NCBI GenBank assembly: GCA_025998755.1
Contig: AP024674.1
Coordinates: 2,372,162 to 2,436,161 of the forward strand
From: Armatimonadota bacterium
Lineage (GTDB): Bacteria; Armatimonadota; UBA5829; DSUL01
Direction of reading: 5' to 3'
Length of the DNA stretch: 64,000 nucleotides
Shown: positions 5,540-58,554 of the stretch, in pieces
Layout of the letters: each line of letters opens with the position of its first letter
How positions within the stretch are numbered: the stretch's first letter is position 1
The notes under the pieces: generated by a model
The model's input: the letters and a program-made list of their open reading frames with translations, nothing else
Told to the model about the DNA's origin: nothing
Database searches by the model: none
Translations under genes and position numbers: made by a program

Positions 5540-6211
5540 TCAGCGGGCGAACCGACGCCGCAGGATGGCTGCCAGACCGATAACTGAAAGCGCCAGAGTA
5601 GCCGGCTCCGGAATGGGCACGACCGCCGGTCTGAGCGGATCATTGTCGAACCAGGTGGACACCGGCTTTCCGCCGATCATCCACGCGGCGGAGTCCTGCC
5701 ACTTGCCCAGCTTCGCGACAGGGTTTCCATCCAGGAGACCGGATTCCGGAACGACCGCCCCAACGTGGGAGAGGAATGCCGTGACGGGATTCCCGAACGC
5801 ATCCACCGCAGACGGGGCCGAGTTGAGGAACGGCTCCGACGGATCAAACGCGTACGTGAACACCAAGGTCTGCTGCGGCCCAAGGGCCGGAGGCGTGTAA
5901 TACTTCTGGCTGCTCTTGTCGATCTCAAACCCGCCATTTTTCCACACCCATCCCTCGGGAGCACTATAGGCCTTCGGAGCGGGAATGTTGCAAGGCACCA
6001 GGCTCCACGAGAGCACCGCCGGGGCCCCGGGGACCGCTCCTGTGGTGTTCAAAGCTTCCCACTTCACCACCGTGTAACCGTTGACCGGATCCAGGTAGCT
6101 TTGCGTCACCACGATAAGGTCCTGCGTGATGGCGGCGTTGAAGTTCGGAGCGGCATGAACGGCCCCGGCGGCGCAGACGAACGCAATGATGAAAGTGAAA
6201 ATCTGCTTCAT
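5540..6211 (-). CDS. PEP-CTERM sorting-domain protein
   Basis: 223 aa exported protein. The N-terminus (MKQIFTFIIAFVCAAGAVHA) is a signal peptide and the C-terminus is a classic PEP-CTERM tripartite signal: PIPEPATLAL, a hydrophobic helix and a final RRRFAR. An exosortase would process it for surface anchoring; no exosortase gene lies in this window. The central part is beta-rich with no domain I recognise. The start at 6211 has an ideal AAGGAGG ribosome site; the frame is open further upstream but that part lacks signal-peptide character. It is monocistronic, facing the araB terminator. Confidence 0.85.
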   Translation of the reverse strand: MKQIFTFIIAFVCAAGAVHAAPNFNAAITQDLIVVTQSYLDPVNGYTVVKWEALNTTGAVPGAPAVLSWSLVPCNIPAPKAYSAPEGWVWKNGGFEIDKSSQKYYTPPALGPQQTLVFTYAFDPSEPFLNSAPSAVDAFGNPVTAFLSHVGAVVPESGLLDGNPVAKLGKWQDSAAWMIGGKPVSTWFDNDPLRPAVVPIPEPATLALSVIGLAAILRRRFAR

Positions 6212-44460: not shown

Positions 44461-45807
44461 ATGTCTTCCCGCCGTCCCGAAGTGACGGTCGTCGGCGGAG
44501 GTCTGGCGGGCTGCGAGGCAGCCTGGCAGCTGGCCGTCAGAGGTGTGGACGTCGTTTTGTGCGAGATGCGCCCGACTCGCCCGACGGGAGCCCACCGCAC
44601 CGGTGACCTGGCGGAGCTGGTCTGCAGCAACTCCTTCAAGAGCAATCTTCCCCACACGGCCAGCGGCGAGCTCAAGCGCGAGATGCGCCATCTCGGGTCC
44701 TTGATTTTGGATGCCGCAGATGCATCCAGTGTGCCGGCGGGCGAGGCGCTGGCAGTGGACCGCGACCTGTTCGCCAGGGAGGTGGCGAGACGGCTGGAGG
44801 ACACCGGCCGGGTCCGGATTGATCGGCGCGAGGTTGAGCGTCTGCCGGAAGACGGGGTGGTGATCGTGGCCACCGGTCCTCTTACCTCAGACGCTCTGGC
44901 GGCGGACATCGCCTGCGTGACAGGCTCCGAAAGGCTTTTCTTCTATGACGCCGTAGCCCCCATAGTGGACGCGGAGACCATAGACTACGAGCGCTGTTTC
45001 CGCGCCTCCCGCTACGGGCGGGACGAAGGATCCTACCTGAACTGCCCCCTGACGGAAGAGGAATACGACAGCATCTGGCAGGCCATCTGCGCGGCGGAGA
45101 CCGTCCCGCTGCATGACTTCGAGGACGCGCGGTTCTTTGAGGGATGCCTCCCTCTGGAAGTGTTGGCGCGCCGGGGGCGCGACACGCTGGCGCACGGTCC
45201 CTGGAAGCCGGTGGGACTGCGCGACCCGCGCACAGGCCGGCGCCCCTATGCTGTCGTGCAGCTTCGCCAGGAAAACCGTGAAGCCACGTGTTACAGCATG
45301 GTGGCCTGCCAGTCGCGGATGACCTGGCCGGAGCAGCGCCGCATTTTCCGAATGATCCCCGGCCTGGAGAACGCAGAATTCCTGCGCCTGGGAGTGGTAC
45401 ACCGCAACACGTATCTTCGTTCGCCAGGCCTTCTGGACGCTTCGCTCAGACTGCGGTCGCGTCCGGATCTGTTCTTCGCGGGACAGCTCGTGGGGGTGGA
45501 GGGTTACCTGGAGTCGGCGGCGACCGGGCTCGTGGCCGGAGTCAATGCGTGGCTGACAGTCGTCGGAGCAGAAGAGGACTTCATCCCTCCGCCGGACACC
45601 ATGCTGGGAGCGCTGCTCCGTTACGTCAGCGCCTGGGAATCCCCAGACTTCGCCCCCATGAACGCGAACTTTGGCATTCTGCCGCCCCTGGAGCGGGCCG
45701 GGCGTATGAAAAAGCCCGAGCGCAGGGCCGCAGCGTGCGAGCGCGCCTTCCGGGCCGTGTGCGACTACGTTCGAACCCGCCCGAACCTCGCGTTCCGCGG
45801 TCTGTGA
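44461..45807 (+). CDS. trmFO: Methylenetetrahydrofolate-tRNA-(uracil-5-)-methyltransferase TrmFO
   Basis: 448 aa. It makes m5U54 in tRNA using 5,10-methylene-THF and FAD. The FAD site is VTVVGGGLAGCEAAWQLA, followed by the TrmFO-specific ELVCSNSFKSN and ALAVDRDLFA. The catalytic cysteine is the one in ELVCSNSF or the later YSMVACQSRM region, both intact. PGLENAEFLRLGVVHRNTY and FFAGQLVGVEGYLESAATG are further family blocks. The ribosome site is GAAGGAGGGAGG. The order topA-trmFO is conserved in Firmicutes and relatives. Confidence 0.96.
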   Translation: MSSRRPEVTVVGGGLAGCEAAWQLAVRGVDVVLCEMRPTRPTGAHRTGDLAELVCSNSFKSNLPHTASGELKREMRHLGSLILDAADASSVPAGEALAVDRDLFAREVARRLEDTGRVRIDRREVERLPEDGVVIVATGPLTSDALAADIACVTGSERLFFYDAVAPIVDAETIDYERCFRASRYGRDEGSYLNCPLTEEEYDSIWQAICAAETVPLHDFEDARFFEGCLPLEVLARRGRDTLAHGPWKPVGLRDPRTGRRPYAVVQLRQENREATCYSMVACQSRMTWPEQRRIFRMIPGLENAEFLRLGVVHRNTYLRSPGLLDASLRLRSRPDLFFAGQLVGVEGYLESAATGLVAGVNAWLTVVGAEEDFIPPPDTMLGALLRYVSAWESPDFAPMNANFGILPPLERAGRMKKPERRAAACERAFRAVCDYVRTRPNLAFRGL

Positions 45808-46176
45808 TTCACCTCCGGCCTGCCGATACCCCCTTCTCTTTCCTCTGGGAATTGCGCGAATTACGGGGTTTTGCGAAAGCGGCCCCGAGTGGCACGCGTC
45901 TTGCACTCCCCTTTAGCAGAAAACGTGTCAGGATCGCGCGGACTTGACGGCAGGCTCATCCGCTTGGCGGGTCCATTTGAGGCCCGGGGCCTCCGCGTCT
46001 TTCGCATTCCGGCATTCACAAAGCAATTTGAAAGTTGTAGGCGGCTTCGTGACGCGGGGGAACTGTGTCCCGCCCCTTTTGGATCGATGCCGTCCTGAAA
46101 AACCGAACACCATCGCGCTCTCCGGCCTATATTCGCCTGCCGGGACGGCGCGTTGAGACAGGAGTGGTATCCAGTA
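45808..46176. other. Leader region of the PEP-CTERM gene at 46177
   Basis: Contains the sigma-54 promoter at 45890 and a 260-nt leader. GCGGG (46053-46057) can pair with CCCGC (46069-46073) just before CCCTTTT, a weak attenuator-like structure. No riboswitch is recognised. Confidence 0.45.
45890..45905 (+). promoter_or_regulatory. Sigma-54 (RpoN) promoter upstream of the PEP-CTERM gene
   Basis: TGGCACG (45890-45896), four bases, TTGCA (45901-45905). The GG and GC doublets have the canonical spacing. It lies about 270 nt upstream of the PEP-CTERM start codon at 46177. PEP-CTERM genes in several lineages are known to be driven by sigma-54 with the PrsK/PrsR system. No rpoN or activator gene is in the window. 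Confidence 0.65.
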
Positions 46177-47022
46177 ATGAAACGAATGACGACAGCGACA
46201 GCGGCGATAGCGGCAGGGCTAGCCGTCCTGCTGGCGTCTCTCCCCGCTTCTGCGGAGCGCACGCCGCCTGGCTCCTTCCTCCGGGACCGCGTGGATTCAC
46301 CGCAGGCCCTTTCGGCTCAGGTCAAGAGCGTCAACTATGTGGGTCAGCGCTACGCAAATTTCTACGGTCTGAAGGTCGACGAGGTTGCTCGCCGCTTCGC
46401 GGCTCTGGAGTATCGTCATCTGCAGAACGAACTGCGGACGCGGGTCTGGTTCGTGGGCAAGGGCAACCGCATCCTCTCCGAGGTGCGCACGTTCAAGGCC
46501 GGGACACCGATGTTCTTTACAAAGACTGGGCAGCCGGTGCTTGACGGCCGGTGTGGGAACCCGCTGCGCGGAGACCTTCCGCAGGCTGTGGCTCAGCAGC
46601 CCGCTCCGCAGACCACCAGCGTGCCAGAGGCCCAGGTGGCGGCACAGGGCGGAAGCAGTGAAGCGGCGGAGGTTGCGCTGACCGAGGCTCTTCCGGTGCA
46701 GCCCGAGCCTGTCATCACGCAGGTGCTGGCTCAGCCAGCCGAGATCATCGTCCCGCCCAGCGAGGTGCTCATCACTGAAACGGTCGTTCCCACTGTGACG
46801 GAATCAGTGGTCGCTTCGGCAGTGGAGAGCCTTCCCGCAGCAGCGGCCGGGGGCAGCTCTTTCGGTCCGCTCGGCCTGCTGGCGGTTCCGCTCGTCGCGA
46901 TCGCGGCGGGCGGCGGTGGTGGAGGTGCTACAACCGTCATCCCCGAGCCCGGATCTCTCTTCGCACTCGGCAGCGGTCTTATCGCTTTCAGCGGCGTCTT
47001 GCTCCGCGCCCGCAGAGGGTGA
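46177..47022 (+). CDS. PEP-CTERM sorting-domain protein
   Basis: 281 aa. Signal peptide MKRMTTATAAIAAGLAVLLA, then an alpha/beta domain (residues 25-125, VDEVARRFAALEYRHLQNELRT and WFVGKGNRILSEVRTF), a long Gln/Pro/Val-rich linker, a hydrophobic GPLGLLAVPLVAIAAGGGGG segment and a PEP-CTERM signal VIPEPGSLFALGSG with a final RARRG. I chose ATG 46177, 12 nt after AGGAG; a TTG at 46153 is possible. It would be anchored at the cell surface by exosortase. Expression is likely sigma-54 dependent. The function of the N-terminal domain is unknown. Confidence 0.82.
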   Translation: MKRMTTATAAIAAGLAVLLASLPASAERTPPGSFLRDRVDSPQALSAQVKSVNYVGQRYANFYGLKVDEVARRFAALEYRHLQNELRTRVWFVGKGNRILSEVRTFKAGTPMFFTKTGQPVLDGRCGNPLRGDLPQAVAQQPAPQTTSVPEAQVAAQGGSSEAAEVALTEALPVQPEPVITQVLAQPAEIIVPPSEVLITETVVPTVTESVVASAVESLPAAAAGGSSFGPLGLLAVPLVAIAAGGGGGGATTVIPEPGSLFALGSGLIAFSGVLLRARRG

Positions 47023-56816: not shown

Positions 56817-57304
56817 CGCTTGTCCCCACCGTAGCGCTGTTCCAGCGCCTTCCGCTGAATGGCGCGAAAATAGGCCATATCCAGCCAGTCCCGCCGCGCC
56901 TGGCTTTCGAATCGCGCCAGCTCCTCCTCTCCCGCGCTATAGATGAGGTCGCGGTCCCGGATGATGCGGTAGCGCAGGGCGGCGGAAGCCTCGTTCGCGA
57001 TAACCAGGTCGAAGTCCTCCCGCCCGAACACGCGCTCCAGGGCAGCCCGCAGCTCATACCAGGCCTGGCGCATGGTCTCGCGCGGGGTCTCGGGCGGGAA
57101 TACCACGGCAATGTCCAGGTCGCTGATGGCCTTGCGGTCGGCTTCCCGGCCCCGCGCAAGCGAGCCGAACACGTACGCAAGCGAAACTCCCGTCTGATGG
57201 AACGCTTCTTGCAGTCGGGATGCGTGCGCGTCCAGGTCCGAGCGTTGCCAAGGCGGCAAGCTGCGCAGCACCGGAGCGCCCATTCCTCCGGGCGGATCAC
57301 TCAA
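56813..57304 (-). CDS. mntA: MntA-type nucleotidyltransferase antitoxin
   Basis: 163 aa. Minimal nucleotidyltransferase with VFGSLARG (G47-S48) and the DLD dyad (D62, D64) plus a later FDLVIANE. The spacing between GS and DxD is 13, not the 10 typical of MntA (GSX10DXD). The TTG start at 57304 has a good GGAGG site. It adenylylates and inactivates HepT. Its promoter must lie in the short gap shared with the promoter of the riboswitch unit. Confidence 0.85.
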   Translation of the reverse strand: MSDPPGGMGAPVLRSLPPWQRSDLDAHASRLQEAFHQTGVSLAYVFGSLARGREADRKAISDLDIAVVFPPETPRETMRQAWYELRAALERVFGREDFDLVIANEASAALRYRIIRDRDLIYSAGEEELARFESQARRDWLDMAYFRAIQRKALEQRYGGDKR

Positions 57305-57381: not shown

Positions 57382-57409
57382 CGAGGTGTCACAACTTCAT
57401 ATTGCAATG

Positions 57410-57606
57410 TGGTCGGGTGGTCCCGCAAGGGGCAGCTCTTGCAAGGGACCTGAAAAGGGAAGACGGTGAAAGTCCGTCGCGGGCCCGCCGCTGTGATCGG
57501 GGACGATGCCGGCACTTGCCGCCACTGCAGCGTCGCAAAGCTCAGAGGACGCTGTGGGAAGGCGCCGGCGGAGGATGATCCGAGAGCCAGAAGACCTGCC
57601 TGACCA
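57410..57606 (+). promoter_or_regulatory. Cobalamin riboswitch
   Basis: The conserved core is easily read: AAAGGGAAGACGGTGAAAGTCCG, then GGGCCCGCCGCTGTGAT (consensus GCCCCCGCnACTGTA), GCCACTG, GGGAAGGC and a 3' end GCCAGAAGACCTGCCTGAC (consensus GAGTCAGGAGACCTGCC). It senses adenosylcobalamin or a related corrinoid. The downstream terminator at 57678-57707 suggests a transcriptional expression platform. There is no B12-synthesis or BtuB-type transport gene after it; the first long gene is the PEP-CTERM protein at 57997. Confidence 0.9.
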
Positions 57607-57636
57607 ACGCTCTCTGTCACATCTTCGGAGGCAAAG

Positions 57637-57876
57637 ATGGCGAGGATCCTGAGAGACACGGAAGTGTCTCAGGCTGGCCCGCGTATCTCCGGATTGCGGG
57701 TTTTTTTGTTGCCGGATGCGCGGGTCAGCGCGCCGGTTGCAAGCGCTCTGGCGGAGTTGCTCCGCGTGGTGGCCGAAATCGGCGAACACGCGGCGCAGTC
57801 CCCTCTCTCTCCGGCCGATCCGGAAGGCAAGGAAGCCGAAACCTTCTTGCTTCCGGGAACCGGGACGGAGGGTTAG
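57637..57876 (+). CDS. Possible small leader protein, 79 aa
   Basis: The ATG has a good site (GGAGG, 5 nt) and lies 30 nt after the riboswitch. The frame MARILRDTEVSQAG then LLPDARVSAPVASALAELLRVVAEIGEHAAQ is partly amphipathic. The terminator at 57678-57707 lies inside it, so either the frame is a chance one or the hairpin acts only when it is untranslated. I rate chance as more likely. Confidence 0.25.
   Translation: MARILRDTEVSQAGPRISGLRVFLLPDARVSAPVASALAELLRVVAEIGEHAAQSPLSPADPEGKEAETFLLPGTGTEG
57648..57707 (+). terminator. Riboswitch expression platform: hairpin plus intrinsic terminator
   Basis: First hairpin: CCTGAG-ACAC pairs with GTGTCTCAGG (57648-57673, two-base bulge). Second: CCCGC (57678-57682) with GCGGG (57696-57700), with an inner ATC/GAT stem capped by TCCG, followed by seven T residues (57701-57707). 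This is the best intrinsic terminator in the window. Ligand binding probably favours it. Confidence 0.75.
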
Positions 57877-57996
57877 CCCCGTTCCAGCGGGGCGACAGGC
57901 GGCAGAACCGTCGCCGGGGCGACTGCGCGCCGTGGCCGGCTCCAAGGGGGCCAATCCCGGCAAAACTCTGACAGAAAGGAAGAAAAGACCAACTCA

Positions 57997-58554
57997 ATGC
58001 GACGTCTGAAACTCCTTGCGGCGATCGCCGCAGCGCTGACTGTCATCGCTATTCCTGCCGCCCACGCCATCAGCCTGAGCGACCTGATCGTTTCCGGTTC
58101 CGCCGGATCCGGGAACAGCACGTCTTACCTGGTGGTGGACTTCGGACCTGACTCTTATGCTTTCGTCTACTACTACGACGGGGTGAAGACCGGGTTTGAC
58201 ATGCTTCAGGCCATCTCCGCCGCGGTTCCGGGCTTTCAGTTCACTTATTCGGATTACGGCGGGGGAGCCATCTTCGTGAACACGTTCGCCTACGGGTCTT
58301 ACCCGCAGACGGGTGGCGGAACCACGTGGTGGTCGTACTGGCTGAGCGACAACGGCACCGACTGGAGCTTTGCTCCGGTGGGCGCTGGCGCCCGTGTGCT
58401 GGCCGACGGTTCCTGGGACGGCTGGAGCTTCGTTCCCAGCTTCAGCGCCCCCGCGCCGCGTCCGGATGTGCCGCTGGTCCCGGAGCCCGCATCGCTGGCA
58501 GTGCTGGGGTCACTCTGCGCGGGGTGGTTCGCTGTCTCGCGTCGCAGGGGTTGA
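57997..58554 (+). CDS. B12-riboswitch-linked PEP-CTERM protein, DUF4430/transcobalamin-like
   Basis: 185 aa. Signal peptide ending near AHA and PEP-CTERM signal PLVPEPASLAVLGSL with a final SRRRG, so it should be surface-anchored by exosortase. The mature domain reads TSYLVVDFGPDSYAFVYYYD, GFDMLQAISAAV, TTWWSYWLSDNGTDWSF and VGAGARVLADGSWDGWSF. This order (a start strand, a VLDAL-type helix, a WWsYw-type strand and an end with G-A-x-DG-x-W) resembles DUF4430, the fold of the transcobalamin/intrinsic-factor C-terminal domain. Together with the riboswitch it suggests corrinoid binding; this is inference. Confidence 0.7.
   Translation: MRRLKLLAAIAAALTVIAIPAAHAISLSDLIVSGSAGSGNSTSYLVVDFGPDSYAFVYYYDGVKTGFDMLQAISAAVPGFQFTYSDYGGGAIFVNTFAYGSYPQTGGGTTWWSYWLSDNGTDWSFAPVGAGARVLADGSWDGWSFVPSFSAPAPRPDVPLVPEPASLAVLGSLCAGWFAVSRRRG

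Follow-up and report, generated by a model that had tools for sequence, protein, structure and literature searches.

A sigma-54 regulon in the family of the genome analysed here probably unites a minority of PEP-CTERM genes with EPS-related genes and multi-copy small RNAs (sRNAs), and the sRNAs most likely repress other PEP-CTERM mRNAs. The window is a stretch of 64,000 nucleotides (bases 2372162-2436161) of genome G000, which comprises 3.29 Mb in one contig. We compared G000 with three relatives from the same family, f1 (G001, G002 and G003). The family relatives include the Armatimonadetes MAGs SJ273 and WAS_Bin_18, and the same loci were found in H1_Bin_MAXBIN__082. The analysis is computational throughout; what these sequences show directly is the boxes and their neighbouring genes, the homology and terminators of the sRNAs, conservation, domain content and excess complementarity.

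Results

A sigma-54 box upstream of a PEP-CTERM gene

The original prediction placed a near-ideal sigma-54 motif with canonical GG/GC spacing 5' of a PEP-CTERM gene, and we confirmed this observation. Window positions 45890-45905 on the + strand (TGGCACGCGTCTTGCA; TGGCACG-N4-TTGCA) match the -24/-12 consensus at 12/12 positions, with a GG-GC spacing of exactly 10 bases as in TGGCAC-N5-TTGC. This is the sole box with zero mismatches across the window. It lies in a 369-bp gap, 82 bp past the stop codon of a trmFO-like gene (44461-45807, +) and 287 bp 5' of the ATG of the PEP-CTERM gene (46177-47022, +). Translation of the latter gives a protein of 281 aa with a signal peptide and a PF07589 tail domain (46939-47016; 23.3 bits vs. 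the Pfam cut-off of 20.7).

Sigma-54 geometry points to a +1 at G45916, and so do the sRNA copies described below, whose homology starts at an equal distance from the box. The predicted 5' untranslated leader would then span ~260 nt (45916-46176, +) and include the Shine-Dalgarno (SD) sequence AGGAG at 46160-46164 (+). An identical box stands 5' of the orthologous PEP-CTERM gene in the nearest relative, G001 (L141), amid flanking sequence that varies. A perfect box also occurs at 120 after trmFO in G003 (L340; G003:C270:8000-11225), as in the window; nusA follows, with no PEP-CTERM gene at this place. We consider it likely, as the best explanation of the site, that 45890-45905 serves the 46177 gene as a true sigma-54 promoter and belongs to a small sigma-54 regulon.

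Two further PEP-CTERM genes in the window have no plausible sigma-54 promoter. One (57997-58554, +) was recognised by PF07589. An 11/12 box at 57198 was rejected as its sigma-54 promoter because the box is internal to a nucleotidyltransferase ORF on the opposite strand and because a sigma-70-like promoter and a cobalamin riboswitch precede this PEP-CTERM gene. The riboswitch (RF00174, 111.5 bits; 57398-57617, +) is directly upstream of the gene; the interval contains a hairpin with a T-run and, at 57637, a short ORF. The gene is followed by a prepilin-like gene, an odd neighbour for a B12 riboswitch. The other PEP-CTERM gene (5552-6211, -; domain at 5552-5617) has no sigma-54 box.

Perfect boxes precede PEP-CTERM genes and predicted sRNAs

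A single such site might have arisen by chance, but we observed 6 perfect sigma-54 boxes in G000, where its base composition predicts 0.42 (Poisson P about 5e-6). Three PEP-CTERM genes account for four of the boxes, since one of them carries two, and the remaining two precede sRNAs. By chance, the upstream regions of the 46 PEP-CTERM genes, taken as 400 nt each, would be expected to hold ~0.001 perfect boxes in total. One-mismatch boxes showed no genome-wide excess in G000 (27 vs. 27), so only near-perfect sites are informative, and our claims rest on those. A box at 825963 was attributed to chance because it falls within a def-like gene.

One more PEP-CTERM gene in G000 carries an 11/12 box; when it is counted, 4/46 PEP-CTERM genes have a sigma-54 box, and the other 42 lack a good box within 600 nt. 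An 11/12 box also precedes a gene for a REC-PilZ regulator, after which come genes for a UbiA-like prenyltransferase and a glycosyltransferase. The box is perfect at the G003 orthologue of this regulator.

The same motif was found before PEP-CTERM genes in the three relatives, which together hold 24 perfect boxes compared to 1 with a reversed-pattern control. Half of them (12) precede 11 PEP-CTERM genes. The others precede sRNAs (5), a REC-PilZ gene (1) and a glycosyltransferase gene (1), or lie in the trmFO/nusA gap (1), at contig ends (3) and within a subtilase gene (1). The box in the subtilase gene (L157) was dismissed as a chance match.

Sigma-54 and a candidate activator

Sigma-54 itself is encoded in G000, as a promoter of this type would require: we found one rpoN (TIGR02395, 329.8 bits vs. 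cut-off 277.35), with AID, CBD and DBD all present in the product. Alongside sigma-54 the genome holds at least one activator, and only one of its bEBPs (sigma-54 activators) is complete. Its Pfam domains are a receiver, a Sigma54_activat AAA+ domain with GAFTGA and an AAA lid, where the protein stops; a Pfam domain search detected no Fis HTH. A receiver and AAA+ domain with GAFTGA, lacking a C-terminal HTH, is the architecture of group 5 bEBPs. On the FlgR model the protein scored 344 (cut-off 750). The gene immediately upstream encodes a kinase of 1184 aa with four GAF domains, PAS, HisKA and HATPase.

The original prediction had linked the box to the PrsK/PrsR route and to a PrsR-like activator. 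The bEBP scored 405 bits on TIGR02915 (PrsR; cut-off 502.6), below AtoC- and NtrC-type models, and the kinase scored 96.8 bits on TIGR02916 (PrsK; cut-off 300). We therefore rejected a PrsR/PrsK assignment of this pair on cut-offs and domain content. Because the bEBP fails the PrsR model and has no Fis HTH, and the kinase is not PrsK, the evidence speaks for sigma-54 control of PEP-CTERM genes but not for the PrsK/PrsR route. The proposed broader link is thus supported in part: a sigma-54/PEP-CTERM association extends outside Proteobacteria, to Armatimonadota, and the route named for it lacks support.

Close homologues of the HTH-less bEBP were present in 23/28 genomes of the class, and the orthologous frames are mostly 400-456 aa, most of them too short for an added HTH. 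A second bEBP of ~460-500 aa, with room for a C-terminal HTH, occurs in families of the class outside f1 (e.g. L218-L224). It is ~50% identical to the HTH-less bEBP and absent from the window's family. The sole complete bEBP of G000 is most likely the activator of the regulon. Having no DNA-binding domain, it would act without enhancers. Inspection by eye revealed no shared element at the position expected for a motif 1 enhancer (~63 nt upstream of the box).

A predicted multi-copy sRNA family

No gene lies downstream of the G000 perfect boxes at 2555118 (+) and 2778257 (-). Each has instead a predicted transcript of ~76-80 nt from the predicted +1; the two are homologous, and both end in a terminator made of a GC hairpin and a T-run. 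All four genomes of family f1 carry the sRNA, with 2-5 copies per genome and a length of about 76-84 nt. The homology begins at the predicted +1, and each copy retains the GC hairpin and T-run. The core, AUCUUUU(U)CUCCUUCUGUCA, is an extended anti-SD sequence and is predicted to be mostly unpaired. At the DNA level the core (ATC-TTTT-CTCCTTCTGTCA) is the same in almost every aligned f1 copy; one copy has an A inserted. We observed no reading frame conserved across the copies. The predicted promoter and terminator of their own, together with this lack of a coding frame, are the features of trans-acting anti-SD sRNAs.

Some copies have degenerate boxes (TTGTA in G001a, GTGCA in G002b). A tandem second copy in G002 (L128/L130, G002:C23) lies 134 bp downstream, has a one-base change in the core and carries no sigma-54 box; it is a decaying or read-through copy.

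Units of box and core, searched with a looser pattern, were found in 16/28 class genomes from four families, often in tandem. A control pattern with a spacer one base shorter gave 0 matches in the class, and in the rest of the phylum (263 genomes) the search gave 4 chance-like matches. Weak matches in the phylum outside the class (L269, L274, L276, L278, L292-L295) were discarded as chance because either the TGGCA box or the terminator is missing. Three Bacteroidales matches of the collection scan (L133, L135, L136) have neither the GGAAACC leader nor a terminator and are unrelated. The sRNA relatives in family f3 (L304-L310, L316, L319) are longer; they also have in common one more conserved block, CTTAAAGTGTTGTGGTTTA, on the downstream side of the anti-SD core.

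No Rfam family matched the sRNA at its gathering score, and Qrr was absent among matches up to E=10. We did not accept the sub-threshold matches to suhB/MmgR (RF00519, 22.3 vs. 41 bits) and to a toxic sRNA (RF02278, 20.7 vs. 50 bits).

Predicted pairing with PEP-CTERM mRNAs

G000 contains 46 PEP-CTERM matches (PF07589) and three exosortases (PF09721), and so has a PEP-CTERM/exosortase system. We computed pairing with the sRNA core on start regions from -40 to +15, with start codons picked by a heuristic, and used a sample of 155 other SD-bearing G000 genes as background. Mean pairing energy was -17.9 kcal/mol for PEP-CTERM genes compared to -12.8 kcal/mol for other genes (p=2e-10). The excess held in an SD-matched comparison (p=2e-9), and in a windowed scan of the sRNA the signal peaked at the core.

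Decoys that kept CUCCUU and had shuffled flanks averaged -14.4 kcal/mol (sd 0.9) against PEP-CTERM genes, and 0/300 reached the real core. Against other genes the same decoys averaged -12.6, matching the -12.8 of the real core. The PEP-CTERM excess was also observed in G002 and G003 (0/200 decoys each), making three genera in all. When decoys were made by reordering pyrimidines, 2, 1 and 1 of 60 reached the real core in the three genomes. The complementarity of the core to the RBSs of its predicted targets thus exceeds that of decoys, as expected of an anti-SD sRNA. Within G000, AAGGAGA occurs in 18/44 PEP-CTERM leaders vs. 5/155 others, and GACAG, which lies outside the SD, is enriched in PEP-CTERM genes (10/44 vs. 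6/155). Non-PEP genes of G002 lean slightly to the real core (7/200). Purine-rich SDs, as a general property of PEP-CTERM genes, may explain part of the pairing signal.

The PEP-CTERM genes of the window illustrate a contrast between sigma-54-driven genes and predicted targets. The RBS of the 57997 gene (TGACAGAAAGGAAGAAAAGAC; 57969-57989, +) is a predicted sRNA target (-22.3 kcal/mol), which makes this gene a candidate for repression, whereas pairing is weak at the SD of the sigma-54-driven 46177 gene (-12.7 kcal/mol), which is not a predicted target. Pairing at the 5552-6211 gene was -18.9 kcal/mol. Across G000, sigma-54-driven PEP-CTERM genes paired more weakly (-12.7 to -15.3, vs. a median of -18.05; p=0.014). 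The relatives followed the same trend, which was not significant there (p=0.15-0.20).

G012, from another family, has the sRNA; in a 400 kb sample it showed one PEP-CTERM candidate and no special pairing. Presence of the sRNA where PEP-CTERM genes are scarce in that sample suggests that the ancestral targets of the sRNA were something else, and it may be directed at PEP-CTERM genes in the window's family only.

Discussion

The pattern of boxes, domains and complementarity is consistent with a switch between surface proteins. A histidine kinase with four GAF domains and a PAS domain would phosphorylate the HTH-less bEBP, which would then activate sigma-54 polymerase at all promoters of the regulon without enhancers. 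Output of a few PEP-CTERM proteins and of the EPS genes (REC-PilZ, UbiA-like prenyltransferase and glycosyltransferase) would rise. The sRNAs would cover the SD of PEP-CTERM mRNAs that are not sigma-54-driven and lower their translation, and the net outcome would be an exchange of the exosortase-sorted surface set. We infer transcription, activation by the HTH-less bEBP and repression as the direction of the sRNA effect; repression is the expected direction because the pairing covers the SD itself. A wider proposal is a surface-coat switch in Armatimonadota whose repressive arm is a class-wide multi-copy sigma-54 sRNA family that Rfam does not describe: one HTH-less activator would switch on transcription of a few PEP-CTERM and EPS genes, and the sRNAs would silence dozens of other PEP-CTERM mRNAs at the RBS. 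For this proposal we see roughly even chances.

The box at 45890 could be a chance match, with its PEP-CTERM gene using a sigma-70-type promoter within the 369-bp upstream gap. The leader is long at ~260 nt from a +1 that is only predicted, single-mismatch sites have no genome-wide excess, and the equivalent box in G003 has no PEP-CTERM gene behind it. This reading is nevertheless very improbable, given that the six perfect sites far exceed the 0.42 expected and are each assigned to a PEP-CTERM gene or an sRNA, and that the G001 orthologue keeps an identical box amid variable flanks. A PrsK/PrsR-type system, in which most PEP-CTERM genes would be switched on by an NtrC-like PrsR from an enhancer located 5' of the box, would account for the kinase/bEBP gene pair and for sigma-54 boxes before PEP-CTERM genes. 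We regard it as the least probable reading of all, because the bEBP is under the PrsR cut-off and lacks an HTH, the kinase is under the PrsK cut-off, and a box is found at only 4/46 PEP-CTERM genes.

A less remote alternative, although still an unlikely one, accepts the regulon of a PEP-CTERM subset, EPS genes and sRNAs and denies any sRNA action on PEP-CTERM mRNAs. On this view the CU-rich core would serve other targets or protein binding, and the RBS match would follow from purine-rich SDs. Consistent with this, the core is conserved class-wide, even in G012 with its one PEP-CTERM candidate per 400 kb and no special pairing; anti-SD cores suit any strong SD; and non-PEP genes of G002 show a slight preference. 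Against it, in three genera decoys with the anti-SD and flank composition preserved fall behind the real core at PEP-CTERM genes and not at other genes, the excess survives SD matching, and the GACAG enriched in G000 lies outside the SD.

Across the genomes that they examined, Haft et al. 2006 (PMC1569441) saw the shared motif in Proteobacteria alone. In Proteobacteria, 99/167 PEP-CTERM genes carry the box. In Aquincola tertiaricarbonis, pepA is RpoN1-dependent (PMC9850573). Like these PrsK-PrsR/EpsH systems (PMC1569441, PMC9850573), the family described here has individual PEP-CTERM genes that follow -24/-12 boxes and have long leaders, a genome that also encodes exosortases and contains EPS genes, and a histidine kinase adjoining a sigma-54 response regulator. 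It differs in its Armatimonadota host, in an HTH-less activator and a GAF/PAS kinase that fall under the PrsR and PrsK cut-offs, in the small boxed subset of PEP-CTERM genes (4/46 vs. 99/167) and in the inclusion of sRNAs in the regulon. Group 5 bEBPs without a DNA-binding domain are recognised, namely FlgR and CtcC (PMC7175178). The G000 bEBP resembles them as a receiver and AAA+ sigma-54 activator without an HTH; its predicted control is of PEP-CTERM genes, EPS genes and sRNAs, not of flagella or chlamydial development.

The sRNAs themselves can be compared to two groups. Their CU-rich core, able to cover the SD, recalls the anti-SD sRNAs suhB/MmgR (RF00519) and RF02278, with weak, sub-threshold similarity; they differ in scoring below the gathering thresholds, in having sigma-54 promoters and in belonging to a different phylum. 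The Vibrio Qrr sRNAs are activated by LuxO and sigma-54 (e.g. PMC10162802, PMC2680268). They occur as multi-copy siblings with rho-independent terminators and have a biofilm/EPS link. LuxO carries an HTH, and the Qrr targets are quorum-sensing regulators. The shared features are multi-copy sigma-54 sRNAs, terminators, a phosphorelay-type bEBP and a biofilm/EPS link, which on our side are predicted from sequence. Unlike Qrr, the sRNAs described here have a different, shorter sequence with no Rfam match at gathering score, an activator without an HTH, and PEP-CTERM RBSs as predicted targets.

A search of openly accessible literature returned nothing joining PEP-CTERM with small RNAs, or Armatimonadota with PEP-CTERM. 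The regulon extends sigma-54 control of PEP-CTERM proteins beyond Proteobacteria, with a different activator, so that the original prediction is partly supported as an interpretation, and it adds a predicted post-transcriptional layer to PEP-CTERM regulation. With a single complete bEBP and so few perfect promoters, the genome offers an uncommonly clear model system for an entire sigma-54 regulon, and the target prediction is specific and can be checked gene by gene. The parallel with Qrr would represent an independent case of multi-copy sigma-54 sRNAs governing a surface lifestyle. Overall, these predictions suggest a previously undescribed on/off exchange of the surface coat in the little-studied Armatimonadota.
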